A stretch of 64,000 bases of DNA from Epinephelus fuscoguttatus (Eukaryota > Chordata > Actinopteri > Perciformes > Serranidae): positions 31,147,098 to 31,211,097 of the forward strand of contig NC_064770.1 of assembly GCF_011397635.1 (NCBI RefSeq), given 5' to 3'. A model generated the notes under the pieces. It worked only from the letters and a program-made list of their open reading frames with translations, was not told the origin of the DNA and ran no database searches. Position numbers and translations under genes: made by a program. Of this stretch, positions 6,748-60,799 are shown piece after piece. How positions within the stretch are numbered: position 1 is the stretch's first letter; every line of letters begins with the position of its first letter.

Positions 6748-9700
6748 ATGTCAGACGTACCGGATAACGCTAATGAGCGTGAGTTTTTAACTAAATATTT
6801 TTGTGACATTTAGACAATATTAATGGTTTCGTAATATGTAATATTGTTATAACAGTAAGGCTGTTGTCGGTTTTAAACAAACGTATCACTGTTACTGTAG
6901 CAACACTGTACCGTTAACGTTAAATGTTCCTGTTAGCTAGTTTTTACACTCAGGCAGGGTTTCAGTTAAATAAAATATCATTACAGTTGCATATAAGCTG
7001 GCACTACTGGGTTGTTTTGAGAGAAAATTAAACAGAAATCGCTTGTGAGGTTCAATGACGCACTTAATAAAGTGTCTCTTATAACGTGACAGCCATTTGA
7101 TAAATGACAGCGGGTCGATATCGCAGAAGTTGCTTAATTTAGCTCGAACAAGACATAATAAACACACAGGACTACATATACAGTGCTGAAATCTTTGTTT
7201 TATGAGCTGCTACACCACTTGAAATGTTGCTGAGTCACTGTGACACAGACCTGTAGACTCAATGTGGAAAATAACAACAGTTACTTTCTGGTTTTTACAG
7301 ATATTATACCACATTAAACCATACTGTTCTGCTGTGTTGCATTCACAGATGATATATGCTACACCCCAGAGTTACATTTAATCTCCTTAACATCCGAGTT
7401 ACTTTTAATTCTCTGTGTAATTAATTTCAGTGTTATTATATATTCACCTTGACATGGTTGGTGTGTTTGTAAACTTAAGTATCTCAACTAGAATATGAAA
7501 GAAAGTCCTGTTTGTTTCATCCAAGTTTGAAATGACAGTCCCAGCAGCAGGCAGTGTGGGTGAACAGGTTAGAAAATACATGCACTCACCTGCCACTTTA
7601 TTAGGTACACCTTACTAGTACTGGGTTGGACCCCTTTTGCCTTCAGAATGGCCTTAGGTCTTCATGGCATAGATTCAACAAGGTGCTGGAAACATTCCTC
7701 AGAGATTTTGGTCCATATTGACATGATGACATCACACAGTTGCTGCAGATGTGTCGGCTGCACATCCATGATGAGAATCTCCCGTTCCAGCACATCCCAA
7801 AGGTGCTCTATTGGACTGAGATCTGGTGACTGTGGAGGCCATTGGAGTACAGTGAACTCATTGTCATGTTTGAGATGATGTGAGCTTTGTGACATGGTGT
7901 GTTATCCTGCTGGAAGTAGCCATCAGAAGATGGGTACACTGTGGTCATAAAGGGATGGACACGCTCAGCAACAATACTCAGGTAGGCTGTGGTGTTTAAA
8001 CCATGCTCAGTTGGTACTAAGAAAATCTCCCCCACACCATTACACCACCAGCAGCAGCCTGAACCGTTGATACAAGGCAGGATGGATCCATGATGCCAAA
8101 TTCTGACCCTACCATCTGAATGTGGCAGCAGAAATCCAGACTCATCAGACCAGGCAACGTTTTCCAATCTTCTATTGTCCAGTTTTGGTGAGCCTGTGTG
8201 AACTGTAGCCTCAGTTTCCTGTTGTTAGCTGACAGGAGTGGCACCTGGTGTGGTCTTCTGCTGCTGTAGCCCATCTGCTTCAAGGTTGGACAAGGTGTTG
8301 TTGCTTCAGAGATGGTCTTCTGCAGACCTTGGTTGGAACCAGTGCTTATTTGACTTCCTGTTGCCTTTCTATCATCTTGAACCAGTCTGGCCGCTCTCCT
8401 CTGACCTCTGGCATCAACAAGGCTTTTTCACCCAGAGAGAATTTTCTCTGTTTCGGACCATCAGAGCAGCCCAACAACCATGTTCAGAGTCACTTAAATC
8501 ACCTTTCTTCCCCATTCTGATGCTCAGTCTGAACTTCAGCAGGTCATCTTGACCATGTTTACATGCCTGAATACCTCAATGCATTGAGTTGCTGATTAGC
8601 CATTTGCATTAACGAGCAGTTGAACAGGTGTACCTAATAAAGTGTCTAGACTTGAGTTTAAATCCAGCAACCAGAACCTGCGTGGTCTGATAAATGCCCC
8701 ACACTGGTAGTCTATTGAATTGTAACCCCTGTAACATGATACATATCAGAAAGAGAGAGATGACTGGATCAACTGTAGATCAAAACCTTGTGTTGGGTGC
8801 TCATAGAGAATGGGAAACAACAGGATACACAGGAAGTCAATCCAGGCACTCCAAAAATATAGAAAACAAGGAAGGACGTCTTAAAAAGACTGTATTGTTG
8901 TGGCTAAACCATTGAAAGAGCCAACATGTTTTGACCACTGCAGGTCTTTGTCAGGGCATAACAAAATATATTAAGTTTTCTATATTTTTGGAGTGCCTGG
9001 ATTGCCTTCCTGTGATACCGTGATACCTATCATATCAAACTCTTGCCAATACACTGCCTTATTAAGTGGTAGGCTATATGTTTTATTTTTCAGACTGCCC
9101 GGGCACACAAAGTGAGCAGGCGGGAAAGTCATCGTCATGTCAGGGCTGTCCCAACCAGAAAATATGTGCCTCCGGAGCCACCAAGGCCCCCGACCCTGGT
9201 AAGACTGTTTCTACATCTTCATATTATTATCATGTGATTTACACAGTTCAGTAAATGCATGTGAGATTATTAGGATGATTTGAATTAAACCAGGAGACGT
9301 TTGTAGCTTTGAAATAACCAATTTTTAAGTGAACTCTTATTCTGTCTCATTTGAGAGTCTCCATTCTTCATTTCTTCCCCCTGTCTCATCTCCAGCCATA
9401 GCAGAGATTGGAGTGAAGCTGTCAACAGTCAAACACAAGATCCTCGTGCTGTCTGGGAAAGGAGGAGTGGGGAAGAGTACGTTCAGCGCTCACCTGGCTC
9501 ACGCTCTGGCAAGTGACAGCACGAAGGAGGTAATCATTTTATTTTTTTTGTTTACACCGCGTAAACCACATAGCCCACAGCCATTTGTTCAAAAACCAAA
9601 ACCTTTAAAGCCACCAGGCCGTTTGGATGGTATTTTTTCTATAGGGGTGTACTGCATGACAGTTTCCTCTTTTAAGGTCAAAATGAGTTCAAACCTGTGT

Positions 9701-10715
9701 TATGTGGAATGAGTGGGCGCTCTCAAACCCATCTGCTGTTCCCTCAGAAGCTGCGGTTTTTACTGTACCTGAGGTTTAGTCCGAAACCTGTTGCTGTTTC
9801 CTGTTGGCGTCAACTTAAGACCACTAGAGGTCACTGCAGGCTTGAGTTAAGAGACATACGAGGTCGTAAAGTTCAGTATAATGGCTCCCTTGAAAAGAGA
9901 TTGTTTATCTTAACTGGACTTACCTAGATAAAAATGGGTTAAATGAAATGAATGAATAAAAATGGTCAGCTTCCTCAACATCAGTTGTCGCTGTAGACAT
10001 TTGTACAGGATTACAAAACTGAGGTGTAGTTTAAAATCCCTTCAGACGGGGCATCGGTGGCTTAGTGGTAGAGCAGGCGCCCCATGTACAAGGCTGTTGC
10101 CGCAGCAGCCCAGGTTCGACTCCAGCCCGTGGCCCTTTGCTGCATGTCACTCCCTCTCTCTCTCCCCCCTTCACGCTTAAGCTGTCCTATCAATTAAAGG
10201 CTAAAACGCCCAAAAAATATCTTTAAAAAAAATAAATAAATAAAAAAAATAAAATCACTTCAGACAATCACAGACTTTACACTTTTTCTGATCCCTTTCT
10301 CTCTCTTTAGGTTGCCCTGCTGGATGTGGATATCTGTGGTCCATCCATTCCTCGTATCATGGGTTTAGAGGGAGAACAGGTGAGTTGTGGGCAATATGAC
10401 ATCACTTATGTTGAGCTGTTACCTCAGAGTAGGTCACTAATCTGTTCTCTTGTGCACAGGTTCACCAGAGTGGCTCCGGCTGGTCTCCTGTGGTGAGTCA
10501 GTTCAAACCATGCTGCTGTAGTTTGTAATGTTTTATTCCTTTAAGAAGTTGCATGTATCATAAATGTATTTGTGTGTGTGTCTGTGTGTGTCTGTGTGTG
10601 TGTTTGTGTGTGTGTTGCAGTATGTGGATGACAACCTGGCAGTCATGTCGATTGGCTTCCTGCTCAGCAGCCCTGATGATGCAGTGATCTGGAGAGGACC
10701 CAAGAAGAATGGTAT

Positions 10716-25710: not shown

Positions 25711-26460
25711 TGACTTTTCAGGTATGCTCTGCTGTGGCGCTGTAGGTGTGGCACAGGTCATACAAAGGAAATGAAGTGCAGTGAATACAAGTCATGGCAG
25801 CTAGGCATGCATTGTTTGGCCAAACCAGTTACAAACCCTAAAATAGGCAACACAGTGGACACATTAATTGCTAATGGTGACACTGGTTTGCGTAGTAACA
25901 ACTTGAGGAGAGAGCATACTGTTTATCAGTGCTTAGTTATGTGTGAACAGCAGTTTTGTGTCTGACTGCAAACTGATAAGTGTGTGAATGTGTTAAATCA
26001 TGATGGCTCAACATGGAATGGGGAAGGACTTTAATGAGAAAAATAAACAAAAGTATTTCCTTCACTGTTATATTGTCTCACACAGAGAAAAAGTCCCTAA
26101 ATCAGTGACAACGATAAGTCATCAAACCAGATGTCGGAATATGGTGATCCTGAGCGCCTTAAAGTAAATGTTTTGTAGATGTATAAAACACTGAAAACTG
26201 TTTTAAGCAAGGGAATAATGATGTTTTTATGAATAAATGTCTGCATTTGCTGTGTTGAAAATAATGTTTTCTTGGTTACAGAGGTGGGCAGGGTGTTATG
26301 GCACAAGTAATACGTGCATGTCAAACAAGAAGCGGTATGTGAATGTTGTAGATTATTTGAACACCATTAGACAAAATGAATACTAATTAATAATGCCGAA
26401 TACACAACAGGGTTGGGTTGTAGAAAGAGTAATGAAAATATTGAGTCTGACACTGAAAAT

Positions 26461-26570
26461 CACTTCCTTATGTAAGCACACTCCAACCTCACTTCCTAAT
26501 AATAATGAAATCTCTGCCTACATGCCATTAAAGTCACCCTCACATGAAATCCCACACAAAAACTGAAACA
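26461..26570 (+). promoter_or_regulatory. Possible ciita promoter-I-like elements
   Basis: Upstream of the first ciita ATG there are two CACTTCCT motifs (26461 and 26490), which on the other strand read as PU.1/ETS-like AGGAAGTG cores. An IRF-like ACAAAAACTGAAACA is at 26556-26570. Myeloid ETS and IRF sites would suit a dendritic-cell type promoter as in mammals. This is an eye match only; no TATA box or start site can be fixed. Confidence 0.3.
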
Positions 26571-26728
26571 ATGCTTCAAACAGACCCCACCTTCAGTGAC
26601 ACAAACACCTCCTTCTTCTAATGAAAACGCCTCCTGAACAAAATAAAAAGAACAACTTAAAACTTAATCATCTCTGCCAGCAGCTGTCTTATTTAGACAT
26701 CAATGTGCCGGGAGCAGGTGTCGTCGCC

Positions 26729-27968
26729 ATGACCCAGTTTGAGGAGGTCCTGGACGGAGTGCGGCTAGCTCTAACCTGGGCCTCTCCCACCGAGATCCAA
26801 GCGCTCCTGGAGGATTTGGTGGAAGGGCAGATAATCTCAGAGGCCTATGGCAAGAGCTTGATTTGGCAGCAACTTACTGAGGGGATCGCACCTGCAGCGT
26901 GTAAAGCGGGATCTGATCTGAGAGGATTGACCACACATTGGCACCTCGACCAAGGTCAGCTCAGCCAGGTGAAGAATTTAGGGTCAGGAAATTCTATAGG
27001 AAGGGCTGTATCATCAGTGGATGAACATGACAGCATGAGGTCTAGGCTAAAAATTCATCCTCTTAGTGAACATCAAGTTGATCCAAAACTAAATCAAGAA
27101 TTGAGGGGAGGACCGGTGACGGACGAACTCTTCAATCTCTTTTCTACCCCGATGGGACGTGACTACCAGTGCAGTCTTGGTTTTGATGACGAAAATACAG
27201 AACTGCTGAGGAGTGCAGAATTAATGCAGAAGCCAGTAAGTGATAATGAAAGAGTGTTTAAGGGGAATTTGGAAGATGAGGAGGAGTGGTTAGAGCAGGT
27301 AGAGGAGGCGGCTAGGAGGATAGCTGTTCCTCTGTGGCAGCACTGGGACAGAGGACAGAAGATGCTGCTGCCACTGGTTCCTGCCAGCATGACTGCTGCC
27401 GGCTGTGCAACAAGTGAAAACACAGCAAGAGACGGTGAAGCACAACGCCCTGTTTTAAATATGGAAGAGGAAACAGAGCTTGCAATCGCTTGCAGGACAT
27501 TAGACGCTGACAACTTTGACTACACAGAGATGGGGATGACTGACCCGAGCTTCACAATGTGTACAGACGGAGCAGCAAAAGGCCTCTGTGTCTCGACATA
27601 TGACGCTGTGGCAACTACTGGACTGAATCATTTGAATATCTCCGGAGCAGAAAGAAATGCCTCACCTGCTCAAGCCTGTGCAGCAACAGTCACAAACATC
27701 ACAGACAGGCTGCAGGGCATTCTGGATGCCTGCCGGGTAGCTGACAGTACAACAGAAGTGGACCTGCTCTGCTTGATGGAAGGCGCACAATGTGGCACGG
27801 ATGTGGGATTTACAGAAGATATTGCACATTTGTTTTCTCCATGTGCACCAACAGATACTCAAACTGACGCACAAGATGACTCTTTTTACTCCAGCGTGGA
27901 TCAGAACATGACATTAGACAATGTAGAAAATGTTTGCAGGGCCGAGGAGAGGGTGGACTCACAGTGGG
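26729..27968 (+). CDS. ciita: ciita coding exon 1: CARD-like plus acidic region
   Basis: One 1240-base exon encodes 413 residues. Residues 1-85 resemble the CARD-like N-terminus of mammalian promoter I CIITA, especially the helix IQALLEDLVEGQIISEAYG. The rest is low in structure and acidic, with EDEEEWLEQVEEA (181-), DADNFDYTEM (259-268), and two similar acidic LFS motifs, TDELFNLFSTP (about 130-) and TEDIAHLFSPC (about 362-). These look like activation-domain segments. The donor GGG|GTAAGT joins in phase to exon 2. If the intron were retained, translation would stop at 28001-28003. An in-frame ATG at 26621 exists but has a weaker context, and an acceptor-like TTATTTAG (26689-26696) suggests a 5' non-coding exon may splice in after it. 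Confidence 0.85.
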
Positions 27969-30900
27969 GTAAGTTTGCATCATCACATCACGTCTCCTCT
28001 TAACAAAAATCATTGATTTGTTTATCTAAAGATACAGTATCAATAACATTTGCTCTGTATCTTATGACTATGTCCTCATATTAGACAAAAACAAGCTGTT
28101 GGTTGGTGTATTTGTTTAGGACAGGGTCCATTTTGTTGCCATGTCCTTGGTATTTCTGCAGTCTGGGGCTAACTCAAAATGAAACTGAAAGCAGGGTACA
28201 CCTCAACCACCAAAACCTGTCCAGGCGTTTACCTAAAACAGCAGTGATTAAACACTGCCTGCCATCTCATGCAGGTGACAGAGCTGACTTTCATTTATGC
28301 AGTGATTATTATGGTGAAGCACGAAAAGGGAAATGGAAAGTACCTGGAGATCTTGGAGAGAAAATACATTTCTTTTAAATGTTCTGGCTTCAGTTTTCAT
28401 ATAACCCCCAATTCATCATGAACTTGAGTACATACACAAGAATAGACTACTACTGCCTGGAATATGACACTCGGTTTGAGCTTGTTAAAGCGTCAGTGAT
28501 GCATTGGGAGAATCAGTTCTAGAAATTAAAGAGGACACAGAGTGTAAAAAGAGGAATAAAGAGTTAGTATTTGTTGTTCAAGTTGAGGTGGACACCATAC
28601 ACCCATGCTTGGTCGTGGGAAACCTGCTGTCAGTGCGCATAACACAAAGTTGAGGCAAAGTTTAAGAATGTTTGGCCTGCATAATGATTAGCTCTGTGGA
28701 AGTTACTGTAACATGACTCAATTAAAAGGGCAGAGCCTGGCTTTCATACATTTGGGTGTGACCTATTGTGATCCCTGTTTACCACGTCAAAGGTTAACAG
28801 CTAGCATTTGGCTAACAGTCGTTTCATTTATTCCCCCCAGTTCAGTTGATGTTACAGCTTCAGAATCACATTTGTGCGTATTTATATTTAAGTTACAAAG
28901 AGAAACAGCAGTCCCTGAGTTAGCTTCATAAGAATAGACCGCCTTTATAAAGATTCATTTCCCTTCTCTTTGTCTTTGCTTCCTCTCACCTCCTATCATC
29001 CTGCTCACACTCTTCAGACTCTTCCCTTTCCTTACTCCTGCAGGACAGGCCGCCATATTTCCTTGCTCTGACTGTGTATGTGTGTTTGTTTGTGTGTGAG
29101 TGTCCATCTTGCACATCCACACACACCCATTGTTTCTGAGGACAATAGTTTACCAGTATCATGTAATTAAGTGGCAAAACGGGTACTAATCTCGTGATGT
29201 AATGAGCTTGGCAGCATGGCACACAGCAAGCGGTGTATCTGCAATGAGAAACAGGTAGAACAGGTACTTTCCACTCATAACCAAAACTCCCCGTGTTTCC
29301 TTGTCCACAGCAAGAGATGTTAAAGTGTGTGTGATGTTGTTTTTATTTTACCTGTTGCATAGGGGTCACACAGAGAATCAGAGACTCAAATAGTAGATTT
29401 TAGACATGAGCATATATATTTAATATTGTAATATTTGGAAGAGAAAAAATACAAGGATAGCTGAAAAAGTGTTCAAAAAGCAAAAGATGAACATATGAGG
29501 AGGGGCAGAGCCGGCCACTGTAAACATTTGGGGCTCAGCCCAAACCAAAGGGGGGCCAGAGTCATGCTCCCGCTCAGATTTTTTTCACATTCATGGCAGC
29601 TTTATGCACTATTTTTCAAGCAATTTGAGATACTAAAATGCCCAAAAATCTGTACATAATTTGTTAAAAACGTGAGAGAAGAACACAACAAATGACTAAT
29701 TTTCACTCCTGCCACCTAAAACGAGGCGTGATGTTACTATTTTTAAGTTACATAACATAGGTAGGGTAGAAATTTGGAGTAAAGGCATTACTAATCTTGA
29801 AACCTACTTTTGTACAGGATGAGTATTTAGCTGACAGATCTGCTACATTTGAATTCATGCCATAATAATCTGTGGTCTTCAATGCTCTGCACATTTACTC
29901 GGTTATATTAGATTTCTTTAATATAAAAGCACAAGCAACACGGGTATATATTATTATCTGAATGACATGGTTCAAAGTATTTTAAAAATCTAAAAGATTC
30001 GGGGCTTTTGAGAAAACATCCAGGGCAGGAGCCGCAGGAGCCACAGGAGCCACAGGAGCCACAGGAGCCACGCCACTGCTCCGCCTCTGCATACATGTCT
30101 GTTATGAAGCTTTCACTCAGGCAGAGCTCAGGTAGAAAAGAAAGAGGATCTTAGATATAGAGGGCCATGATGGAAAGGGGGACAATAAACTGACAGACCA
30201 CCCTAATAATAATGACACAGTGATAACAAGGCTGTAGTTATGATACATATTGGGGGGGGTCATCACCCCCAATATTAAAATATGCCCAAAAAGTCCCCCC
30301 AAGTATATTGTTGACAATATATACATGAATAAAAAATGTACTATGCTACGTAAGGCAACCACACACCACTGTCCAAAATAATCATGAGCAAATGTAAATT
30401 GCAAATGTTACATTTGGTTCTATCTTTATGGTGTGCTGCAGTTCTGCTGCCGCACCTGAGCAGAAGCCATTCTTCAACCAGTGTGTAGGTACAATCAGTG
30501 TCAAACACTACTGTCTCTTCTTTTCATTGCTTTGAAATGTATTAAAAAGTGGAAATTAGAAAGTAATTAGGGATGTCCGGCTCAAGTTTTTATGATCCCG
30601 ATCTGAGTCATTTATCATTGAGCATCTGCCGCTACCAAGTCCCAATTTGATACTTCTGTGATCCTAGATAATACAGCTACACAGTGCACACTTCACACCC
30701 TGCATCAAAGCAGTTCCTTATTGTTACTTTATTGTTTATTTATTTATTACTTAAAAAGTAACTAGGTATAAAATGACAACCCCCTAAACGCAAGATACTG
30801 TCAAACTGTGCTGAAAGTTCTCATAAATTTTGGTAACAAAAACATAAATTAACAGTCCCGTGCTGCATTTTGCTGTTGTTTATGGTGTGTGGTGTTTTGC

Positions 30901-39900: not shown

Positions 39901-42900
39901 AAAAGCATGGGTTTTACTTCAGTCCAAAAAGGTAATAACAAAACTGACGAGGAGGCAAAAAAAATCCTTAAAACCACAACAGGCTAAGTTACAAACGGGT
40001 CCCGGGAATCAAATGAAGAGATTGCTAGAAAGAGGTGGGTATATATACGCAGGGATGCCTGAGAGGATAATCAGGGGCAGGTGAGTAAGTGGCAGCAGGT
40101 GCGATGAAAGGCAGGAAAACACAGGAAACTGCAATAACACAAAAGTTAGTTAGTACTTCAAAATAAAACAGGAAATATAACCCCATATGCTTTCAGTCTT
40201 CACGCATCAACATGTTGGCAATATTTTTAATTTCATTTTTGTGTATGTGCGTGTGTGTGTCCTATCAGGTGCCAAGATGCAGGACATCAGTCAGGACCCG
40301 TTTCTCTGTTTGGGAGATCTACCAGGTTTGTATTGTTCGAGTTTGGATTACTTGTTCGACTGTAAAAAGGCTGAATGGCTCAACATGAATCAAAACACTG
40401 ACTTCATAGAAAGTTACTGCTTATACTTCATCGTATCCAAAAAGTATGAGGCAGACTGTGTTGAAGCCTACTGAATGAAACAAAACTACACTGCAAGTGC
40501 AAAACTGATAAGCATCAAAGCTACAGCAGGTAACTTCTGTGAAAATAAATTTAGTCATATTGATGAAACTGTCACTATATCCACACAGTATAACACGAGA
40601 CAGATATTTATGTTCCTCCTCCTCCTTCAAGTGCTCCTCTGCTCCACTATTGATTGAGATGTGTTCTTGTTTCTCTTGAGAGGCCACAGTGTTTGAACAG
40701 TTGTCGTTTTATTGTGGATTTTTGTATTATTTGTTGTATTTGTTGCGTTTTAAATGTGTTTTGACAGGTTGCTACCAATCTAAATGGGACTTCCTGGTTA
40801 AATAAAGGTTAAACAAATCAAATAAAAGTTACCAGCTGTAGCTTTAAAGGAAATTTAGTGAATTTAATATAATGTTATTGATTGAACCAGGATCACCACT
40901 GAGCTACTGTTGCTTTGAATACAGCCATAGAGATGTTAACTGATGAAAAAAATCAATTTTAATGGGCACGTTTAACATGATCATATCACAAAAAGATGGT
41001 CTAGAATCTGGGCTGGTTGAAGGTGAAAATAGTGTACATTCACACATTACTGGTATTCTATACACTGGGTTCATTTGTCTACACTAAAGGACGAGATAAA
41101 GACGACAGTTGTAGTCAGAAAAAGCTGATAGATATTGTTCTCTACCTGTGTAACTGCATCCTGATCACTCACCTTCAAGTGTGCAACTTGTTATAACGTC
41201 CATTTATCAGAACTGTTTTAGCTGCATATCTAAGTCAGTCTTAAAGAAGCCCAGATAGCCTGTAAGACTTGTAGCAGCTGGACCTTGAGCTTGTTGTGCT
41301 CCTCCTCCTCATTCAGAGATGCTGCTCAGTAGGAAGAGGTGCCAAAACCCTCTGAACTGTTTGAGACGCCTATCTTGATTCAGAAGTTCTCGTACGCCTC
41401 AAAAACATAACCGAGACTTTAGGAAAGCAGCCAAAAAAAACCAGACGTGCACACCTTAAACTGTCCTTAGCAAATATGAGCAGAGATGGGAAAGCAAATG
41501 GTTGCAAATGCTTTGTCTAATAAATGTTCATTGTTGGTGTTTTAGATGATTTATCGGAATTCCTGAATGATGATTACCTTGGGAAGTTTGTGGGTAAGTT
41601 GCAACCAAACTTCCGCACACATTCAGTGTGTCAAATGGCTTACACATGAGCACACATATTCAAGTATGAATGCAAAGGTAATCTTTTGTCTAATTGCCTC
41701 CTTTCTTAGACACAGGAGCGCTCTTTGACGATCCCTGTCTCAACTGTGAGGAAGAACTCACCACCTGCTGTAAGAAGCTCTTGTTGCAGATGTTGACACA
41801 AACAGGCAATACATGAGAGTAAAGGAGGAAAAATAAAGGGGCTTAAGCTTTAAAAAAAACTGGGCAGGAAATATGTTATACTCCATATAACATATTTCCC
41901 TATTTGATATAATTACAATGCTATATGGCCATTTTGTGTAGTAATGTCATCTCAGCAAATGTGCAAGACCAGTTTGTGGCAAAGAGGAAGGTTTTAAACT
42001 CAACACTTTTCTACACATTGGGTTTTAAAAAGGTCAGTAGAAAAAAAAATATCTATTTGGTGCCAAAAAAATTGAGACATTCTGCAGCTGTGACCCCAAA
42101 CACCAAGAAAGTGGAATCAATGGATAAAAAACACAAGGGTTAGGAACCATTTTTCTGAGTTTTATCCTGTCTACCATTTCCTTCAAAATCTTCAAGATGT
42201 TTGGGGAAACGTGTCGCTGCTTTGATTTTCAGTTCACTACCGAAATGCATGAGAGCCATTTTTGGTTATTGTGTCCGTTAGCTGCTTCACTGACTCTCTT
42301 ACTTCCTCTTTCGTGCACTTTAGGTGATCTTCCCCCGCCAATGGAGCTGCCCGGCTTTGACAGCCTTCAGCAGATACAGGAGGACAAAGTTACAAGCACA
42401 ACAAACACCAGGAGAAAAAGATCCAGAGGTATAAAACAGTCGCTAACTAGAACTAGAATTGGTGAAAACTAATATAACACTTAATTTTTGGAATGCAGCC
42501 ACAAAATTCTGCAAGCCTGAATTAATGTGTGGGTTTTAACTGTAACTTTACACTTTACATCTTCTGTTTATATTTTTCATCTCCAGCTTCCCGATCACAG
42601 CCATGCACTGATGAGAACACACCATCTAGGCCGAAAAGGCAGAAAAGAGCAGGTGACCGACCCTGACTGACTGTTTGGTTTCTGTCTGTTGAGTATTCAT
42701 GACGTGGCTTCAAATGTGGGACACTGTGAAATATATAACCAGAGCAGTGTCATGTCTGCCAAAAGCAAATTAACTAGCTAATGTTTTATCATTTTGGAAA
42801 CCACCCTCTTTTGTTTGGTAGTCTCAGTGTTTTGTCAACAGTTTCAGGGAGCCACTGCTTCCATTCATGTATATGTCAAATGCATGTGGCGTTTTTTTTG

Positions 42901-45900
42901 TCACACAGTGGACATCAAGTTGGCATCAAGGTTTTTCAAAGATACATTACTATTAGGAAATGATGCAGTCCAATGAAATCCATCCATCTCTTTTCTGTAG
43001 CTTGTCCAAGCTGGGTTCACCCTGGACAGGTCACCAGACTAATTTCAGGGCCAACACATAGCAACAGACAACCATTCACGCTCACATTCACACAGGGAAC
43101 TTAGAGTCAACAATTAACCTAATCTGCATGTCTTTGGACTGTGGGTAAACCCCTCCAAAAAACAAGCTGACATGGAGACAAACTCCACACAGAATGGACT
43201 CAAGCTGGTATGCAAGGTCGACCCCAATGAAATCAGGCTGTACAGAAATCAGTGTAAACCAATGGCTGCCTCGAATGCTAAGATGCTAACAAAATTTGTA
43301 GTTAAAGGGACAATTCACCCCCAAATCATTACAATCTACGTCTTACACTGTCACAAGCACAAGCCTCTTGCCCATGAGTAGGTGCAGTGATATGGTTGGC
43401 GGTTGTGGTTCGGTAGAAAGGAAATAGACCCGATGTGAAACTGCTCGCAGCAAGGTCTGTGGATTATCTTGAGTAACTGGGTCATGATTTCTAGAAAGAG
43501 ACATTGCTGTTGAGCTTTTCAAATGTATTTTTAGTGCTTTAAACACCACAAGCTGAGTGCCATCTAGTTCCATTATACTGAAGAGAAAACAGACATCTCT
43601 ATGGCTGATATCTCCAACACTCAGGAACTCCCATAAAAACAGCCTAGACTGATAAATAGCACTACAGGTGAGAGGAAAAATATGTACTTTTGATTTTGGG
43701 GTGAACTGTCCCTTTAAGGAGCTTAAACTTGCAAACACAATGGTGTGTTCCTTTAAATAATTCTGGTGGATCTGGGCTTCTTTTGTGGCTGCCTTCCTGT
43801 GAGGTTAGCCAAAAACAATATTGTAATGTTTACAACCCTTCAACTCTTGCAGGTCGACCAAAAACCGAAGAGCCACAGGCTGAGCTGACTGTCACTCAAG
43901 GTATGTTTCTCATGTTCCTGCTGTAAACTGAAGCAATACTTAGGGGAAGAGATAGACCCTGTAAGTTTTGTTTTAACATTTTAAAGGAACATTAAAAATA
44001 TATTATATAATATATTAATGTTGTAAATGTCAACTGAATAGCTTTTGCAATGCACAGTACAAGGCTATGTGATATGAACACTATGCCCATGAGAGTTCTC
44101 TCTATGAGTAAAATGACATTTTACAAACAGGGCAAACCACGTGAGGCTACAGTAGTAACATATGACTCATGGTTTAAGGGGATGTTGGTTGGTTATGGTT
44201 GACTTGGTTCCTTCGTGGCACAAGGATGCAGATTGAGAAACAGGAAGTTTAATTTTGAAGTCGTCAGATAAGAGATCACACCGTGAACCAAAAGAAGAAC
44301 TCTGTCTTCATTTGACTCGATTCCATTTTCAAATCTTCTAAGTCTGCTCAAATGAAAGTCGCAGGCATGATACAAAATCTTTGGGTCCTAATCTCTTGTA
44401 ATTCCCTTGGAAGCAACCCTATCTGCATGTTTTCCTTTACCATCCTTTGTTTTTGATTCACCCAAGGTCAACAAAACCTGTGGGCACAGACAGATGAGGG
44501 TTGTTGTCTGTGTTTCTTTTGCAGACACTGACACAGGGTCAGAGCTGAGTTCACCAGAGACGGCGGCCCCCCCATCCACTCCCCCAAGAATCCTTCATCT
44601 CCATCCCTCCATTCAGTTCATCACCATCCCAGACAATCCGGGATATCAGGTTGTTCAGACACTGAGTCTCTCTCCTCCAGTTATTACACTTCCACTCCCC
44701 AACACAGCTGCTGCACCTACTTACATTTTAGGTGAGTAAAGTATTCACATACACTGATTAACCAGTTTCAGCGCAGTAGCCCTGGGAAACATCCTGTCTG
44801 TTTTTGTTGACATTGTGTGAGAGAGGAGTTGATTGTGAAGGGGAAATGAAAATTCAGTTGGCATGCAGTTGCCCTGAAAACTGGATTATCAAACTTCCTC
44901 TAAGAAGTGTAGCTTAAATAGGGGTGTAATTAGCAACCGCTGAACTATTTCCTGTTTAAAGTGACTGAAAAAGTTTTCCAGGAACTACTTTTCATGTTCA
45001 TCTAGATACTTGTTACCCGCGAAAATTTCAGTCCTAGTCCCACTGAATATTATGCTGTGTTTGAGTCAGTTAAGCATGTCCTAGGTCAGTGGTTTCCAAC
45101 TGGTGGGTCGCAGTCCAAAAGTGGGCCACTGGTCCATTTGAAAGGGACTGCAAGTGACTTGCAAATGTGTCAAGCTTAAAAAAAAAAAAAAAAAAAACCC
45201 ACTTTATTTTGAAGTTCAGTGAATTTCCGGCACAATTTAGGTGCTGTTTTTTGTTGTAGAGTGAGTGACTAACGGACAGCTACTTGACAGGGACAGCAAA
45301 CTAGCTCGACGATATGGCCAAATGCCAGTATGACGCTGAATATATCAAGCCGTAAGGACATTGAACTAATGACCGAGGAGAAATCTGGACCCGTAGCTGG
45401 ACCAGTTGGGAACCATGTCCTAGACAGACTGGAACCACATTGTCTCCATTAGAAGTTATGTATCTGGTAGGATGTGGAGTCTCCCAGGGCTCAGTCCTAG
45501 GTCCTCTTTTGTTTGAAAGCCCCACACCTTTGCCCAAAATGAATTTCTGAATTTGGCGACTGGTTCTGGCCACGCGTGCATGTTAGTGCATGCGTGTACT
45601 GGCTAGCATTCACTGCTGCTTTGCACTGAGCTCACATGGAAGTTATCACTGTTATTAGGACTATGTCATTGTGGAAGCATAGTGCCCACCCTTAAATTCC
45701 CCCCTGGTTAACACTGTTAGCTCTGTCAGCACTGTTGCTGTTGTTTGGTGCCATTTATGGAGTTAGCACCTTTAGCAACTAGCCGCTAGCTCAGCCTCCT
45801 TCCATGTTGAGAACCATGTCTGGAAAACTTATAGGCTTTGAATTTCACATAGAGCTCATTTAAATTAATACTAAATGACTCTTTTACAATGTAATGTATT

Positions 45901-48900
45901 CTGTGCACTATAAAGCACTTTGTTTATGAATATCAGTTAAACGTATTAAATTGCCTTGCCCCTTTTTTTTTATCCAGTTCCTGCTGCTTCACCACCCTTC
46001 AAACGTCAAGTCCCACCCCTCTCCCCGAGTGAGTAAAGAACTCTTTAATCTTGGATGTACATGTGTGTGTCTGCCTGTCTCTACTTCTTGTGTACATATG
46101 CAAAGATCTCATTCTGTCAGTTTTGTGTAGTTTATACTCCCACATGTATAGTTTTATTTCTGTCTTTTAAGAAACAAAATGGAAACCTCTCTGTACTGAC
46201 TGCCGTGTGTGAGAATTCAGGGTACTAATTGTTCTCCCTTTGTGTTTTTAGTTGACGGTGCAGTTGCGCCAGTCCAGATGAGTTCATCCCCATTAGGATC
46301 TCTGTCGGAAACCGCTAGCACAGCCATGTCTCCCACTTGTGCCTCACCCCAGTCTCCTAGCACTGGTGAGTTTCAGTATCTCTCTTTTCTCCTTGTGTGT
46401 AAATTACCGTGTGGAGTTACTGTCATCTTACAAAAATCTTGACATGCTGAATTTCAGAGATGTCTGCATGTAAGGAGTCACCCCTTCCTCAGTCTCCCAC
46501 TGTCATTGACATTCCACGTAAGTTACCACATGCTTTAATTCCTCTTTTCTGCTTTGATGTAAAATTTCTCAAAAGCACAAATCATGTTTTGTGGATAAGC
46601 AGGTTCACAAACAATTGTGTTTCTTTTTCAGAAGTTGTAAAGGACTACATCCAGGAAGCCAAAGCCCATATGAGTCAAACCTGCCAGGATATGGAGGCAG
46701 GCCTTAGCCTGACCTCTCATTACGTGGATGTGCCAGTGAGCCAGAGAGAGACTCGCTCTGGAAAAAGCACAAACAAAACCCTGGATAAGGAGCTTATCAT
46801 CATGGGAGACACGGATCGGCAAAAGACCTTGTTGGGGCCGAGTCAGGTAACACTTTCACTTTAATGGGAGGGATAAACAGTTATCATGTAGTGCTTTCTA
46901 AACATAGCCAAATTCAATACTATACAATGTATCCTCATACAACAGCTCGTATGATATCCTACAGATTTGCACCCCATGAATAACATTATGTGCTTAATGT
47001 AAAGTTGCAAAGGTTAGGTTAAGTCAAGTAAAGTTACTGTAGTTAGGTCTAGCTCCCAGGAACATCGCTCAGCATTGCTTCCAATTTTTCCCAGTGGCCA
47101 CTTGTGGTATCGCAGCAAATAAAATCCTGTGTGGCCCAAAACCATTATAAAGAGACATCTGTAAAGCAGTTGACAGGACACCTTGAACTGCAATAAGTTC
47201 AATTATGACTCTTTCTAAAATAAATTCTGATCCATGGAGGTTTCGTATTTGTAAAACTTTCCTTGAGCCGAGAAAAACGATTGTAAATCTGGGACATCTG
47301 AAACATGATGATGATGTACATTAAAATGCCTCCAAGTTTACTGAAAGTTCACATGTTTCCGAACACCAGTGTCTTGGGGAAAGTCCTGTGTTTTGTGGCC
47401 CATCCACCACCCCTAACTGCCCCCTTACGAGACCCCTTCTGTCTTTACCTTCCCAAAGACGTGGGTTATACACAAATTAGTGTCTCATGATGATGTGGGA
47501 TATGTATGAAATACGTACAAACAGTGCATGAGAACAGCCTATACTGTAAAGTATGAAAGTTTTGATTTGTTTATATCCAAAACATTGCTGAAATCATTGG
47601 CTGCAACTCACTGGTATCCATATGTTTGTCTTTATCCACCTAGATCTTCGAAGGCTCAAATGTAGACAAACCCAAACGCTACATAGTGCTACTCGGCAAT
47701 GCTGGTATGGGAAAAACCACCCTGATCAGGAAGCTGTGTCTCGACTGGTCCAGGGACCGCATCCCACAGTTTGACTTTGTCTTCTTATTAGATGGAAAAT
47801 CACTCTCTTTAACAGAGGCGACCTTTAGCCTTAAGACCCTCCTCCTAAACCTCTCCTCCTTTGCTCCTTCCTGCATGGACCCCGAGGCAGTGTACGCTCA
47901 GATCCTCGCAGCCCCTAAGCGCGTGCTGATCATTTTTGATGGGTTTGGCGAGTTGCGGGACTTTGAAACTCTTCTCCAGACTCAGGAAAAAGACATTGTA
48001 GCATCATTGCAGAAAGACAGTAAAGCACAGAACTTCACAGTAAGACATTTATACTCTGGCATCCTTCAGAGGATGCTCCTTCCAGGCTGCACTCTTCTGC
48101 TCTCGACACGACCAAAAGGCACTGCCACCCAGCTACTCCGGCGGACAGACAGCATTTTGGAGGTGTGTGGCTTCAATCCCACAGACGTAGAGACATATTT
48201 GTCTCAGTACTTCACTGATCCTGACCTCAGAGCATCTGCTTTGGACTCCTTAAAAGACTGCAGCTATCTCCACCTCCTCTGCTGGAACCCTGGACTGTGT
48301 CGGTTAGTCTGCTTGGTTTTAGAACAGTGCAAAAGTTCAGAGGACCTCCCGAGAACTTTAACTGGACTCTGCCATCAAGTGCTTCGTCTGATAATGGAAA
48401 TGGACAGAAAGAGCATGCACTCACAGGCTGAATCTCAGTCAGAAACATCTATGCAAACAGAAGAAGAAGCCCAGACAGAAATCTCAAGTAGTTCTCAAGC
48501 AAAAACGCAGCACAAAAACACTCGGAGAAAGTCCAGAGCACAAGTTCGCCCTGGCTCGCACACCCAACGAGCAAGGAGGACAAAAAAACAGGACAAAGAG
48601 GAAGATGATGGCGATGGGGAGGGGATGAGGAGTGCTGGAGAGGAAGCAGACAGAACAGAGGAGAAAGAGTTGCTGTCCCAGCTGAGTTCTTTGGCCTGGG
48701 AGTCAGTCAAAGCAAACACCTGCACCCTCCCCACAGGACGAACCATATCAGCCAAACTCAAGGCATTTGGCCACAGGACAGGACTTTTCTTCTCTTGCCA
48801 CCTGAGGGCGGGGCAGGTTGTCCCAAGTGGTGAGACAGAGGGAGGGGGAAGAGAGGATAGTGAAGAAATGGGAACTGGAAAGAATGGAAAAAAGGGGACA

Positions 48901-51490
48901 GTCACTGAACATGCTGACACTAGTGATGACCACATCCTGTTGTGGGCCAATCCTTTTCTTCAGAGTTACCTGGCAGGGGTCCATTTGTCTCTATCAAGGT
49001 AAAAGTTTCTTGATTCATCAGAGTAAAATAGTCTTCCTCTATGTTTTCTATTAGAATTATTTGGATAAAAAGATTAAATGAAAAGTGGTTGATTGAGTGA
49101 TAAGCTTTTAAGCTGGCATAGTATCTTCTATGTCCTTTGTTTAAAAATGAAAGAGCACATCTTTTTCCACTCCCAGCCTCTTTTCTCTTTCACTTTCAGT
49201 GCTCTGCCCTCTCCGGATTTCCCTGACTCTTTCCCACTTTCTGTTTCCTCAGGACTATAACAGACCGTGCCTTTCATCCAACCCTCCCTTTCCAGTCAGG
49301 CCAGAAGGGGCGTCGGAGACCCCAAAGGGAGGAGCTTGAACTCACTCAGCGATTTGCAGTCGGACTCCTGTTCCACGACAGAACAGAGCTGCAGAGGCTT
49401 CACTCACACACAGAGAAAACCTTCAGAGATATGGTTGCTGCCAAGCAGGCTTTAGTAACAAAACACCTTGAGGGTCTTTCCTACAGTGACCTGAGCCCCG
49501 CCCAGGTCCTGGAGGCGTGTCACTATGTGTATGAGGCAAACTCCACGCATGGTGATGGTAACAGAGACAGTGGCAGCACACAATTAGTTGCCCACCTGGC
49601 AGCAAATCTTCCGGAAGTTCTAACATTTCGTGGAGTTCCACTTAAGCCGTCGGACGTGTTCACTGTGCAGCATGTTCTCGAAAAGGGTGGAACTGAAGGT
49701 AGAAGGTTCTGTTTGGATCTGGAGGATTCGGGGATACAGATTTCTGGACTCAGAGCTCTCATTGGGCTCAACAACATCAACACATACAGGTATACAATTA
49801 AGTTTGTAAAACCCCTTCCCCAAACAGTGATTGTCCAATCATAGCTTAATAACCCTAATAAGTGCTCAGTTCAAAGAGAGCTGTATGATACTAATCCACT
49901 GAAACCAATATCAACACTTGGGTGTCTTCTAGGGCATGCATTGCTGATGTCATCACCTTATGGGAGCAGTTAGAGCAGAGTGGTGAAGAAGGTCTCCTAC
50001 AGGGGACGGTGTCCAAATTCAAGATCCACCCTCTGAAAGCCACACAGGTGTGTCACATAGAGCACCTGGCAAAGCTGGTGAACATACATGTGCACAAGAG
50101 GCTGTCAGACAGGTAATACAACCCGCCACCTTCCCACACACACATGGAGATGAACTCAGTTATACTTTACAACATACAAACTGTGTGTGTCTGGCCTCTG
50201 ATGTGTGTGTGTGTGTGTGTGTGTTTGCTTTTAGTTCCAGCCAATCAGATTCAATCCTGGCAGAGGGAATACCAGCCGTCAAAGAGCTACGCAAGCTGGA
50301 GTTTGAGTGAGTAGATCTGACATTTGACATTACTTCAAAAAGTAATCTATTACTTCACTTAATCACTCCCTGTAGAAAACTCTGCTGGTTAGATTACTTC
50401 TGCAGCACTCGGCAACATTGCCTGAGATGCATTGTTACGTATTGCCAATTGACAATATGATGTTAAACCTTACATATGCCCACATATAGGCACAAAACAA
50501 GGCTCAATAGGAGAATCAATATGGCACTGCAGTAGGCTGTAACTACCTACACCACCTAGTATAAATCTTAATTGCCTCAAAATAACACATCAAGAGGCCT
50601 AAACAAGGTAATACAGGAGACTGGCCTTCTAACACCATTAGATGACGATGGACTAAAATGGCGTACAAACTGTTTTTAACGGGTCAAACATACTCCAATG
50701 AACTCACTCAGTTTGCTCGCTCACAAACCGTGGTTTCATAGCAGATATGTCCAGTTTATTTGATGTATTGATCACTAAAGCAGTGGTTATACCTCATGAG
50801 GAAGAGTCTCTCAAGTCGTTTGTCAGACAACCTGTTCCTTGTTGGAGTCAGCACTGTACGGCATCGCTGTTGTCGGCACGTTTAATGAGCTTTTCCTATC
50901 CACCCATGCAGATGATTAATTAACTTATGTAACGCAATTAGTAACAACATTGATTAGGAACTGTAATGTGATTACTGAATTTAGGAAGAGTACATTTGAG
51001 TAGAATTGATGATTACAATGACAGTAATGACTTTATCTTTCTGTCTAGCCTTGGTCCAGAGAAAGGTCCACTTGCTCTTCTCAAGCTGTGGGGGCTCCTG
51101 CCTGGTCTACAAAACCTCCAGCACTTAGAGTAAATATACACCCCTTTACTTCTAGTTCTTCTAGTGTATTTGTGTGTTTGTCTCAAATGTCTGATGGTTG
51201 CTCTCCTTCTCCTTCAGTCTGGAAAACAGTAAGATAGGTGACAAAGGAGCAGAGAAACTGGCCGATGCTTTAGTCTCACTCTCTTCCCTGGAGATACTCA
51301 AGTGAGTACACCGTGTTCCTTTCTCAACCTGTGCAACATAGTCTTTATGTATAGAATGTGTGTTTAGCAAAGTGTGACCTCTCTCCTTCCGGTTTCTAGT
51401 GTGTCACAGAACTGTATCGGAGATCAGGGGATGAAGAGACTGGCAACCACACTGAGGGATCTGCCCAAACTGCACTGTTTAAGGTATATT

Positions 51491-51523
<33 letters not shown>

Positions 51524-52326
51524 AATACCTACACAACACCACCCACTGTGGTACATACTGTAGACCCACATAATTTCACTTCCCTATCCCCTCTCTGTGT
51601 TTGTTCCAGTCTCTACAGTAACGTGATTTCTGATGAAGGGGCAGAGAGTTTAGCAGCTGTCCTCCCACACATGGCTTCGCTCACTGACCTGGAGTAAGAC
51701 CTTACATATATATGTCATGTTTACAATTCACATGTATGACTTCTGTGTGTACGTGTGTGTTTTAATGGCGTGCTGTCCTCATATCTGATACCTCTTTGTT
51801 TATTTAACTGAAAATGCTCTGTGGTGTCTGTACTTTGCACTGGATATCACTTTCATTAAACTATGGACAGAAATTGAAACACACACATCAAATGAGGAAC
51901 CACTGAAATAAAATTAGACACAAGTAAATGTTGATCAGGTGATCTTTAGTGAGTAATACGTTGGGGTGACATTTAAAGTGTAAATTGTTTTCTGTTTGGC
52001 AGTGTGAAGTACAACAAGCTAACAGACGTTGGCGCACAAAGCTTGGCAGCCAGTCTGAGAAACTGCAAGAAAATGAAAACACTGAGGTGAGAAAACATGT
52101 GAGCGTAACCACCTCTCCCCTCTCCTTTTGGGAAAAATATTTCACTGCTCCACAACCAAAACCAAAACCAGAGCATTGTTATCTCACTTCCTTCCCTGGC
52201 ATGCCATATTACATCACAACATTTTTTTCCATCTCATCCCATGACAGGATGTGGAACCAGTGTATTCCATACGGAGTGTTTGAGAGGCTTCAACACCAGG
52301 ACAACCGGATCCAGTCCTGGCAGTAG
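26729..52326 (+). CDS. ciita: MHC class II transactivator (CIITA), CARD-bearing form
   Basis: CIITA is the NLR-family, non-DNA-binding master coactivator of MHC class II genes, recruited to the RFX/CREB/NF-Y enhanceosome. Coding exons: 26729-27968, 40269-40325, 41546-41593, 41710-41769, 42324-42428, 42587-42652, 43853-43900, 44525-44731, 45978-46028, 46252-46365, 46458-46517, 46632-46846, 47644-48998, 49253-49789, 49933-50112, 50235-50306, 51049-51129, 51218-51301, 51400-51483, 51610-51693, 52003-52086, 52248-52326. All introns are GT-AG; phases agree across every junction (phase 1 through exons 1-11, phase 0 before the NACHT exon, phase 2 after). The sum is 4911 bases, 1636 residues, against about 1130 in human. 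Order: CARD-like, acidic, Pro/Ser/Thr-rich, NACHT (Walker A GNAGMGKTT at 775-783, Walker B LIIFDGFGEL near 852), winged-helix/helical region, LRRs. The last residues (LQHQDNRIQ) match the vertebrate CIITA C-terminus. ATG 26729 was chosen for its GCCATGA context and because the CARD-like part begins there. Confidence 0.93.
30026..30071. repeat. 9-bp minisatellite (CAGGAGCCA)n
   Basis: About five units of a 9-base repeat in ciita intron 1; on the minus strand it translates as repeated Cys-Gly-Ser. Confidence 0.9.
30568..31165. mobile_element. MITE with TAGGGATGTCCG ends
   Basis: Left end TAGGGATGTCCGGCTC and right end GATCGGAACATCCCT are inverted copies with few mismatches. The subterminal blocks GATCCCGATCTGAG (left) and CTGATACCGATCTTTGAGATC (right, in shortened form) are related. 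End style is like fish hAT elements, but the flanks do not show a clean 8-base duplication. Confidence 0.7.
31545..31727 (-). pseudogene. RecQ-like helicase N-terminal fragment
   Basis: The minus strand reads a 60-residue piece with EQEYALEQDFHEGKDVFALL and the ATP-binding loop LPTGFGKSLIYQLALLV. That is the Q-motif and Walker A start of a RecQ-type DEAD helicase. It stops shortly after motif I, so no functional helicase is present. RecQ-like fragments of this kind are dispersed in fish genomes, so this is more likely a piece of a repeat or a retrocopy than an exon. Confidence 0.55.
31861..32281. mobile_element. MITE with CAGGGCCACAC ends
   Basis: Left GCCAGGGCCACAC and right GTGTGGCCCTGGC are perfect inverted copies (13 bases). 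The ~420-base interior is GC-rich at both ends (GAAGCGCTGCG, CTCGCGCGAG) and includes a (CA)n run at 32031-32056. No coding frame; target duplication unclear. Confidence 0.8.
34656..36047. mobile_element. TTAA-flanked long-TIR element, copy 2, with nested insert
   Basis: Left end AGGGACAGTTCACCCCCAAA and right end TTTTGGGGTAAACTGTCCCT are inverted copies, followed on the right by TTAA (36048-36051); the left flank is GTAA. Inner blocks such as TCTAGATTGTTTTGGTGTGA and its inverse near 35960 extend the inverted repeat. A second sequence about 34895-35670 is inserted; it carries GTCTCTATATACAGACTGTA at one side and TTTTATACAGTCTATGA at the other, plus the fish repeat phrase GGCTCCAGAAGTGAGTCGAT. 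Confidence 0.82.
36535..37185. mobile_element. Long inverted-repeat element with perfect central hairpin
   Basis: Arms of about 90-120 bases are recognisable as inverted, diverged copies: TGGGTCATTAGAAAATTTTG…TTATGAGTCATCA on the left against the reverse complement of TGATGACTCATAA…CCCGATGACCCA on the right. Near the centre a perfect 14-base inverted pair CATTACATGATACA / TGTATCATGTAATG (36986-36999, 37010-37023) closes a 10-base loop. Confidence 0.65.
37565..37800 (+). repeat. Fish interspersed repeat fragment
   Basis: Contains GGAGCCCCAGCTCCTCCAGT, CCACATGTTGAGGTATCCTT and GGGCAAGATACTGAACCCC, a sequence block that I recognise as common in percomorph genomes. I do not know its class. Confidence 0.5.
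37985..38270 (+). mobile_element. Full-length tRNA-derived SINE
   Basis: The head has an A-box-like GTGGTGCAGTGGTTGGCAT and a B box TTGTTCGAACCC. The conserved middle GTACTCCGGCTTCCTCCCAC, AGTCCAAAGACATGCATG and the L2-like 3' part GGGTACCCCACC follow. This is the V-SINE/HAmo style of fish SINE. Pieces of the same family are at 3366-3610 (+), 31355-31416 (+) and 42975-43205 (-). Confidence 0.85.
39830..40100. repeat. Probable interspersed repeat fragment
   Basis: Contains GGTGGAAACTCAAATGCAGA, an A-run (39893-39904) and AATCAGGGGCAGGTGAGTAA, which resemble a repeat seen dispersed in fish introns. Class not known. Confidence 0.4.
40269..40325 (+). CDS. ciita: ciita coding exon 2, alternative start candidate
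   Basis: Reads AKMQDISQDPFLCLGDLP. The ATG at 40275 has a purine at -3 (AAGATGC). In mammals the shorter, CARD-less CIITA isoforms begin at an ATG in the corresponding exon, so this exon is the likely start of a short form if a promoter lies just upstream. The donor GTTTGT is weaker than average. Exons 3 and 4 continue the acidic part with DDLSEFLNDDYLGKF and GALFDDPCLNCEEEL. Confidence 0.75.
42324..42652 (+). CDS. ciita: ciita exons 5-6 encoding a bipartite nuclear signal
   Basis: Exon 5 (42324-42428) ends in TRRKRSR (residues 498-503) and exon 6 (42587-42652) ends in RPKRQKRA (518-524). The two basic clusters are about 14 residues apart, as in a bipartite nuclear localisation signal. Human CIITA has nuclear signals in the comparable N-terminal region. 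The intron at 42429-42586 splits them. Confidence 0.7.
42975..43205 (-). mobile_element. SINE fragment, minus strand
   Basis: Reverse-strand pieces of the SINE complete at 37985-38270: CTAATCTGCATGTCTTTGGA, GACCTGTCCAGGGTGAACCC, and GTGTGGAGTTTGTCTCCATG near its inner end. The tRNA head is missing. It lies in ciita intron 6. Confidence 0.75.
43306..43713. mobile_element. TTAA-flanked long-TIR element, copy 3
   Basis: Sits between TTAA at 43302-43305 and TTAA at 43714-43717, with ends AGGGACAATTCACCCCCAAA and TTTTGGGGTGAACTGTCCCT. It is 408 bases and the cleanest of the three copies. TTAA duplication is the mark of piggyBac- and Kolobok-type transposases, so this is a non-autonomous derivative of such an element. 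Confidence 0.9.
43853..46846 (+). CDS. ciita: ciita exons 7-12: Pro/Ser/Thr-rich linker
   Basis: Six short exons encode a low-complexity segment rich in Pro, Ser and Thr, which matches the P/S/T region of mammalian CIITA. Exon 8 (44525-44731) has SIQFITIPDNPGYQ and PVITLPLPN, resembling the human IQF…STLP stretch. Exon 12 (46632-46846) reads VVKDYIQEAKAHM and leads into the NACHT exon. Five of the six internal junctions are phase 1, so single exons could be skipped without a frameshift. Confidence 0.85.
45087..45417. mobile_element. hAT-type deletion derivative in ciita intron 8
   Basis: Ends CAGTGGTTTCCAACTGGTGG and CCAGTTGGGAACCATG are inverted copies. Flanks show TCCTAGGT (45079-45086) and TCCTAGAC (45418-45425), an 8-base target duplication with two changes. 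Inside, the plus strand reads MAKCQYDAEYIK before a stop, which looks like the start of a hAT/ZBED-type transposase. It is an internally deleted copy. A run of A (45178-45197) lies inside. Confidence 0.82.
47644..48998 (+). CDS. ciita: ciita exon 13: NACHT nucleotide-binding exon
   Basis: One 1355-base exon carries the NACHT domain, as is usual in NLR genes. Walker A GNAGMGKTTL binds the nucleotide phosphate; Walker B reads IIFDGFGEL; LLLSTRPKG is the sensor 1 type segment (about 908-916). Human CIITA has GKAGQGKS in Walker A and is known to bind GTP. Residues about 1012-1099 (48406-48669) form a highly charged insert. It includes Ser/Gln/Glu repeats, the basic run KNTRRKSRAQVRPG and RARRTKKQDK, and an acidic EEDDGDGEG. 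This replaces a short loop in the human protein and may act as a second nuclear signal. Confidence 0.9.
49253..52326 (+). CDS. ciita: ciita exons 14-22: helical region and LRRs
   Basis: Exon 14 (537 bases) covers the helical domains after the winged helix, with SGIQISGLRALIGL resembling human CIITA. Exons 15-16 lead to the LRR start (AVKELRKLEF). Exons 17-21 are 81, 84, 84, 84 and 84 bases, all phase 2, each one ribonuclease-inhibitor-type leucine-rich repeat of 27-28 residues (for example LENSKIGDKGAEKLADALVS, then the NCIGDQGMKRLA and SNVISDEGAESLA units). The last exon ends in QCIPYGVFERLQHQDNRIQ and a TAG at 52324-52326. Confidence 0.92.

Positions 52327-60436: not shown

Positions 60437-60799
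<363 letters not shown>

Follow-up and report, generated by a model that had tools for sequence, protein, structure and literature searches.

The locus considered here is a 64,000-nucleotide stretch of the Epinephelus fuscoguttatus genome (NC_064770.1, positions 31,147,098 to 31,211,097 of the forward strand), hereafter called the window, in which a long open frame lies upstream of the common exons of ciita. The question is whether this frame (26729..27968) is a first coding exon of ciita, comparable with the exon that starts mammalian isoform I, and what the long acidic part that it would add might do. From the sequence, the interval was judged with high confidence to be a coding exon of ciita. 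The reading favoured here, which is considered quite probable, is a promoter-I-type first coding exon with a CARD-like start and an arm of ~330 residues, spliced in a long form to exon 2.

Gene model and neighbours of ciita

A gene model built from splice sites and phase spanned 26729 to 52326, its 22 coding exons encoding 1636 residues with no internal stop, and every one of exons 1 to 11 ended in phase 1. The genomic span from exon 2 to the stop codon was 12.1 kb, compared with 25.6 kb when counted from exon 1. The features of the model were as follows:

26729..27968, forward strand: exon 1 of ciita (1240 bases), a putative type-I-like first coding exon that ends in phase 1
27969..27974, forward strand: donor GTAAGT of exon 1, directly after 27968
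40269..40325, forward strand: exon 2, the first common exon; translation from its ATG at 40277 would give a short form without the CARD-like part
40269-40325, 41546-41593, 41710-41769 and 42324-42428, forward strand: exons 2-5, the usual N-terminal acidic domain, assigned from composition
42324..46846, forward strand: exons 5-12, with the basic stretches RRKRSR and RPKRQKR and then a proline/serine/threonine-rich (P/S/T) region, assigned by eye
47644..48998, forward strand: exon 13, NACHT domain (PF05729, E-value 3.2e-31)
49253..52326, forward strand: exons 14-22, leucine-rich repeats (by eye from the translation) and the stop codon

The CIITA architecture, namely an acidic N-terminus, a P/S/T region, a NACHT domain and C-terminal leucine-rich repeats, was therefore found within one gene. 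On a separate point, the NACHT exon encodes long charged stretches past the domain (48421-48920), one of them starting KNTRRKSRAQVRPGSHTQRARRTKKQDKEEDDGDGEG, the basic part of which could be an additional nuclear signal.

Three further features were located on the two sides of the gene:

8020-8427, reverse strand: Tc-type transposase fragment (PF01498, E-value 1e-11), 18 kb from exon 1
9329-9709, forward strand: NUBPL/ParA-family exon (E-value 5.3e-10), upstream of ciita and on the same strand
60440-60799, reverse strand: DEXI open frame (PF15198, E-value 2.8e-51), downstream of ciita

The NUBP-like and DEXI neighbours fit the identification of the gene as ciita. NUBP1 is the gene upstream of human CIITA (PMC7866136). 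DEXI adjoins CIITA in mammals. Exon 1 lies ~12 kb upstream of the common exons and between these two neighbours, as would be expected of a distal promoter-I exon.

No second copy of exon 1, as DNA or as protein, was found among the best-scoring candidates in the genome of 1.05 Gb and 26 contigs. The exon itself was the sole good match to the extension (two other hits had E-values of 2.6 and 9.2), while residues 1-85 matched nothing in the rest of the genome up to an E-value of 10. As exon 1 matched only itself well among these candidates, a mobile element, a paralogue and a processed copy were rejected.

Borders and coding signal of exon 1

The ATG of exon 1 is at 26729, from which 413 codons are open, within a stop-to-stop frame of 467 codons (26600..28003) that is the longest in the window. 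The terminal donor at 27968 scored 9.6 bits, is in phase and lies close to the end of the open frame, while ~0.004 in-phase donors of this strength would be expected within 40 bases. The donor matrix, like the charge-hydropathy formula and the 9aaTAD pattern, was an approximate version. The acceptor of exon 2, CCTATCAG, is at 40269, where the split codon is completed, the computed join giving the junction frame W-G-A-K-M-Q-D. Two marks of isoform I, an ATG of its own and an in-phase splice to a common exon, were thus present as computed from the sequence. The earlier note had described a 1240-base open exon that splices in phase and adds 413 residues, and this description was confirmed by the frame, the donor and the computed junction at 40269.

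The 467 codons of this frame exceeded both the longest frame in 100 simulated 64-kb windows (250 codons) and that in 2000 sequences, each of 1404 bases, generated with the statistics of the exon itself (307 codons). Stops amounted to 32 and 28 in the other forward frames of exon 1, and to 14, 16 and 12 in the reverse frames. Furthermore, residues 86-413 had a codon score of 0.109 per codon, using a score trained on the other ciita exons, and this value was reached by none of 5706 non-coding frames of the same length taken from window parts outside the ciita exons (maximum 0.085). Four ciita segments held out of the training scored between 0.073 and 0.117, and the extension falls inside their range. 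The period-3 chi-square of residues 86-413 alone (42.9) was likewise reached by 0 out of 1188 non-coding stretches (maximum 23.7), the control stretches overlapping, so that the counts are not independent trials. On the other hand, synonymous codon choice gave no signal in the extension (-0.040), nor did it in the surely coding NACHT exon (-0.015). In view of length, periodicity and splice phase, a chance frame was rejected. Exon 1 is likely to be used mainly in its long form.

The CARD-like start

Exon 1 was divided into two parts:

26729..26983, forward strand: CARD-like N-terminus, residues 1-85, the first 54 of which align gap-free to mouse isoform I
26984..27967, forward strand: extension, residues 86-413, with a net charge of -35, no second copy found and no known family

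Residues 1-54 were aligned with mouse isoform I from its first methionine, using a provisional mouse sequence and not a database record, which gave 15 identities out of 54, no gaps and a score of 71. Compared with the other 1666 open six-frame segments (at least 25 residues), the same mouse sequence scored 39 at best. Moreover, shuffling the mouse piece 5000 times gave a maximum of 59 and shuffling the exon 2000 times a maximum of 65, so that no shuffle reached 71. An N-terminus homologous to that of the mammalian exon was thus found with respect to the provisional mouse sequence. In view of this gap-free match, exon 1 most likely corresponds to the promoter-I exon of mammals, and its homology to the isoform-I exon is considered very likely from the sequences compared.

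Pfam profiles run against exon 1 returned no CARD family up to an E-value of 10, and the PDB sequence search with exon 1 returned nothing significant. An alignment-free model of residues 1-105 consisted of six helices with a mean pLDDT of 56, too poor for use, and its best fold match had an E-value of 4.7. The CARD-like start described in the earlier note therefore stands with regard to the alignment with the provisional mouse isoform I, but found no counterpart among Pfam CARD profiles or significant fold matches.

The acidic extension

The 328 residues of the extension contained 18.0% D+E and 7.3% K+R. When windows of this length were taken along the whole protein, 133 out of 1309 were as acidic or more, some of them overlapping the extension, and the charge of its most acidic 30-mer was reached in 1828 of 2000 shuffles. 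The earlier note had described long acidic segments with aromatic residues. The overall charge agrees with this, but three segments had at most one aromatic residue and a net charge no lower than -3: residues 86-126 (neutral overall, no W, F or Y), 209-249 (net -3, no W/F/Y) and 291-331 (net -1, one W/F/Y).

Tiles of 39 residues were then filtered for acidic-plus-hydrophobic composition with thresholds of our own (net charge of -7 or lower and at least seven W/F/Y/L). A total of 15 out of 290 tiles passed in the extension, starting at residues 147-158, 169 and 331-332, compared with 41 out of 49 in exons 2-5, 3 out of 47 in the CARD-like part, 0 out of 202 in the P/S/T part and 0 out of 858 in the NACHT-LRR part. 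After shuffling of the extension, 14.3 tiles passed on average, and at least 15 passed in 415 of 1000 shuffles. Since shuffling matches the tile count, nothing besides composition points to an activation domain. The composition would permit one, while the arrangement of the residues singles none out.

With respect to disorder, the extension fell just on the disordered side of the charge-hydropathy boundary (0.107 vs. 0.097, with the approximate formula), as did exons 2-5 (0.149 vs. 0.082), unlike the CARD-like part and the NACHT domain. The alignment-free structure prediction of residues 86-413 had a mean pLDDT of 33, too poor for use. No known family was assigned to the extension by Pfam, PDB sequence or fold searches on exon 1, and among viral and prokaryote contigs, which might carry fish contamination and where 1 and 6 stretches respectively fitted a pattern, no relative was confirmed. 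Two possible origins were likewise not supported: the extension as a duplicate of exons 2-5 (score reached by 637 of 1000 shuffles) and an internal repeat (462 of 1000).

Upstream sequences and alternative forms

The following elements were found upstream of exon 1 and within it:

26460-26468 and 26489-26497, reverse strand: two AGGAAGTGA sites, PU.1/ETS-like by motif, as putative promoter-I elements
26703..26732, forward strand: nine-codon upstream frame, with its ATG at 26703 and its stop (26730-26732) overlapping the exon-1 start as ATGA
26954..26955, forward strand: internal donor AAG|GTCAGC, cutting one base past codon 75 and in phase with exon 2

The AGGAAGTGA pair precedes the ATG of exon 1 by about 230-270 bases. 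In the conventional dendritic cells of mammals, PU.1 is a transactivator of promoter I (PMC4841550). The word occurred eight times in the whole window, vs. 0.70 expected, and was not confined to the surroundings of exon 1; this window-wide over-representation weakens the reading of 26460-26497 as promoter elements. The words for GAS, ISRE (GAAANNGAAA) and EICE were absent from the 600 bases before exon 1 and the 1000 bases before exon 2. Other motifs included IRF half-sites at 26561, 39562 and 40238, an E-box at 39792 and AGGAAGT at 39297. The nine-codon frame could dampen or couple translation, provided that the mRNA starts upstream of 26703.

The donor at 26954, which the earlier note does not mention, is the second-best in-phase donor of exon 1 by the approximate matrix (7.5 vs. 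9.6 at 27968), and the chance of finding an in-phase donor like it within 150 bases is ~0.046. A slightly stronger donor (7.9) follows 26968, yet it is out of phase. Splicing from 26954 could give a CARD isoform of mammalian size. Furthermore, a scan of intron 1 for an ATG with an in-phase GTRAG donor returned four short candidate alternative first exons. A more speculative proposal, to which a low probability is given, is that exon 1 is switchable: the 26954 donor would give a mammal-like CARD isoform, the 27968 donor would add a 338-residue acidic arm as a second activation or turnover domain, and antigen-presenting cells would tune MHC class II through exon 1 splicing.

Comparison with known CIITA forms

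Mammalian isoform I adds 101 residues (PMC7866136; PMC5536018), which agrees with the ~100 residues that the earlier note had given for the mammalian CARD-like part and makes the 413 residues of exon 1 about fourfold longer. In both, an alternative first exon supplies its own ATG and a CARD-like start and joins the common exon 2 in phase (PMC7866136). They differ in the ~330 extra acidic residues found here, to which nothing in the provisional mouse exon corresponded (score 38, compared with a mean of 30 and a maximum of 52 for shuffles). NLRC5, with its untypical CARD, is an MHC transactivator with a death-fold-like N-terminus, a feature that the putative long form may share, but is without an acidic activation domain (PMC7866136).

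As of 2017, work on fish CIITA was described as two catfish reports only (PMC5536018). Two forms were later reported in zebrafish (Hou et al. 2020, J Immunol; its IRF1/CIITA result is recounted in PMC7573153), so that alternative forms of a fish ciita are on record. The grass carp protein is likewise a teleost NACHT-LRR CIITA; its gene differs in having 20 exons and an open reading frame of 3189 bases, it was drawn beside human type IV, and the main text of that paper never uses the word CARD (PMC6540827). The annotated CIITA spans were ~7.4 kb in round goby (PMC6988351) and ~18.8 kb in Atlantic salmon (PMC7573153). In European anchovy, CIITA was reported to be under positive selection (PMC13403563), so that fish CIITA may be undergoing lineage-specific change.

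Among the matches listed from the open literature, represented by titles and the starts of abstracts, no description of a long acidic CARD-type ciita exon in fish was found. Such an exon may well be present in the gene models predicted for other fish. The earlier note likewise knew of no description of the large acidic extension; that it is undescribed is a weak claim.

Discussion

In the favoured reading, the first exon of an mRNA made from an upstream promoter would encode a CARD-like segment, which is homologous to that of mammalian isoform I, and then ~330 mildly acidic and probably disordered residues; splicing to the common exon 2 would preserve the frame. None of the usual parts, namely acidic domain, P/S/T region, NACHT domain and leucine-rich repeats, would be lost from the predicted protein of ~1636 residues. 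Its extension would most likely be a flexible, negatively charged N-terminal arm, making weak contacts with co-activators beside the main acidic domain and/or controlling turnover. Translation starting at the exon-2 ATG would give a form without the extension.

Several other explanations bear on whether this exon is translated in full. The grass carp open reading frame of 3189 bases argues against a long first exon, and the round goby span could not accommodate an exon placed 12 kb upstream, which also counts against it, though annotations often miss first exons. Most transcripts could instead end the exon at 26954, leaving 75 residues plus a junction glycine, with the long form as a minor product or the extension as a regulated cassette. 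Such an exon would be about the size of the mammalian one (101 residues, PMC7866136) and would use the second-best in-phase donor, but that donor is the weaker of the two, its chance occurrence is not very unlikely, and the coding-like sequence past 26954 indicates that this stretch is not plain intron; the explanation is regarded as rather improbable. A chance or decaying untranslated frame beside ciita could be argued from the uninformative synonymous codon usage, and is considered very unlikely in view of the length, the periodicity, the splice phase and the isoform-I match. Even less credence is given to an exon of another gene or a mobile element, for which no support was found, the nearest candidate being the transposase fragment 18 kb away; the lack of a second copy among the genome candidates, the in-phase ciita junction and the CIITA-type N-terminus all stand against it.

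As regards the function of the extension, the earlier note had proposed a second transactivation domain, which would recruit co-activators by itself. The net charge of -35 over 328 residues and the passing tiles, compared with none in the P/S/T and NACHT-LRR parts, are in its favour, and the isoform-I part of mammals raises MHC-II transcription somewhat (PMC7866136). Nevertheless, passing tiles were about as many as in shuffles, the acidity did not cluster beyond composition, exons 2-5 scored far higher and showed no similarity to the extension, and mammalian isoform I was less active than isoform III once the protein level was counted, against an earlier report cited there (PMC4752451). Thus, the acidity of the extension was upheld, while an autonomous domain is viewed as a tentative and somewhat unlikely interpretation. 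A slightly lower probability is given to an extension that sets the stability or location of the isoform, as a degron or through cytoplasmic retention, rather than activation. By analogy, the extreme N-terminus of mammalian isoform III mediates both degradation and transactivation (PMC4752451), which would be compatible with such a role.

CIITA sets the levels of MHC class II, and even in mammals there is disagreement over the value of its CARD-type isoform (PMC4752451 vs. PMC7866136). If the reading favoured here is true, a natural isoform with an N-terminus that is fourfold longer would date the isoform-I exon to before the split between fish and mammals and indicate that it has been reshaped. 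Moreover, the long isoform would then offer a natural test of what the residues that separate the CARD-like part from the acidic domain do.
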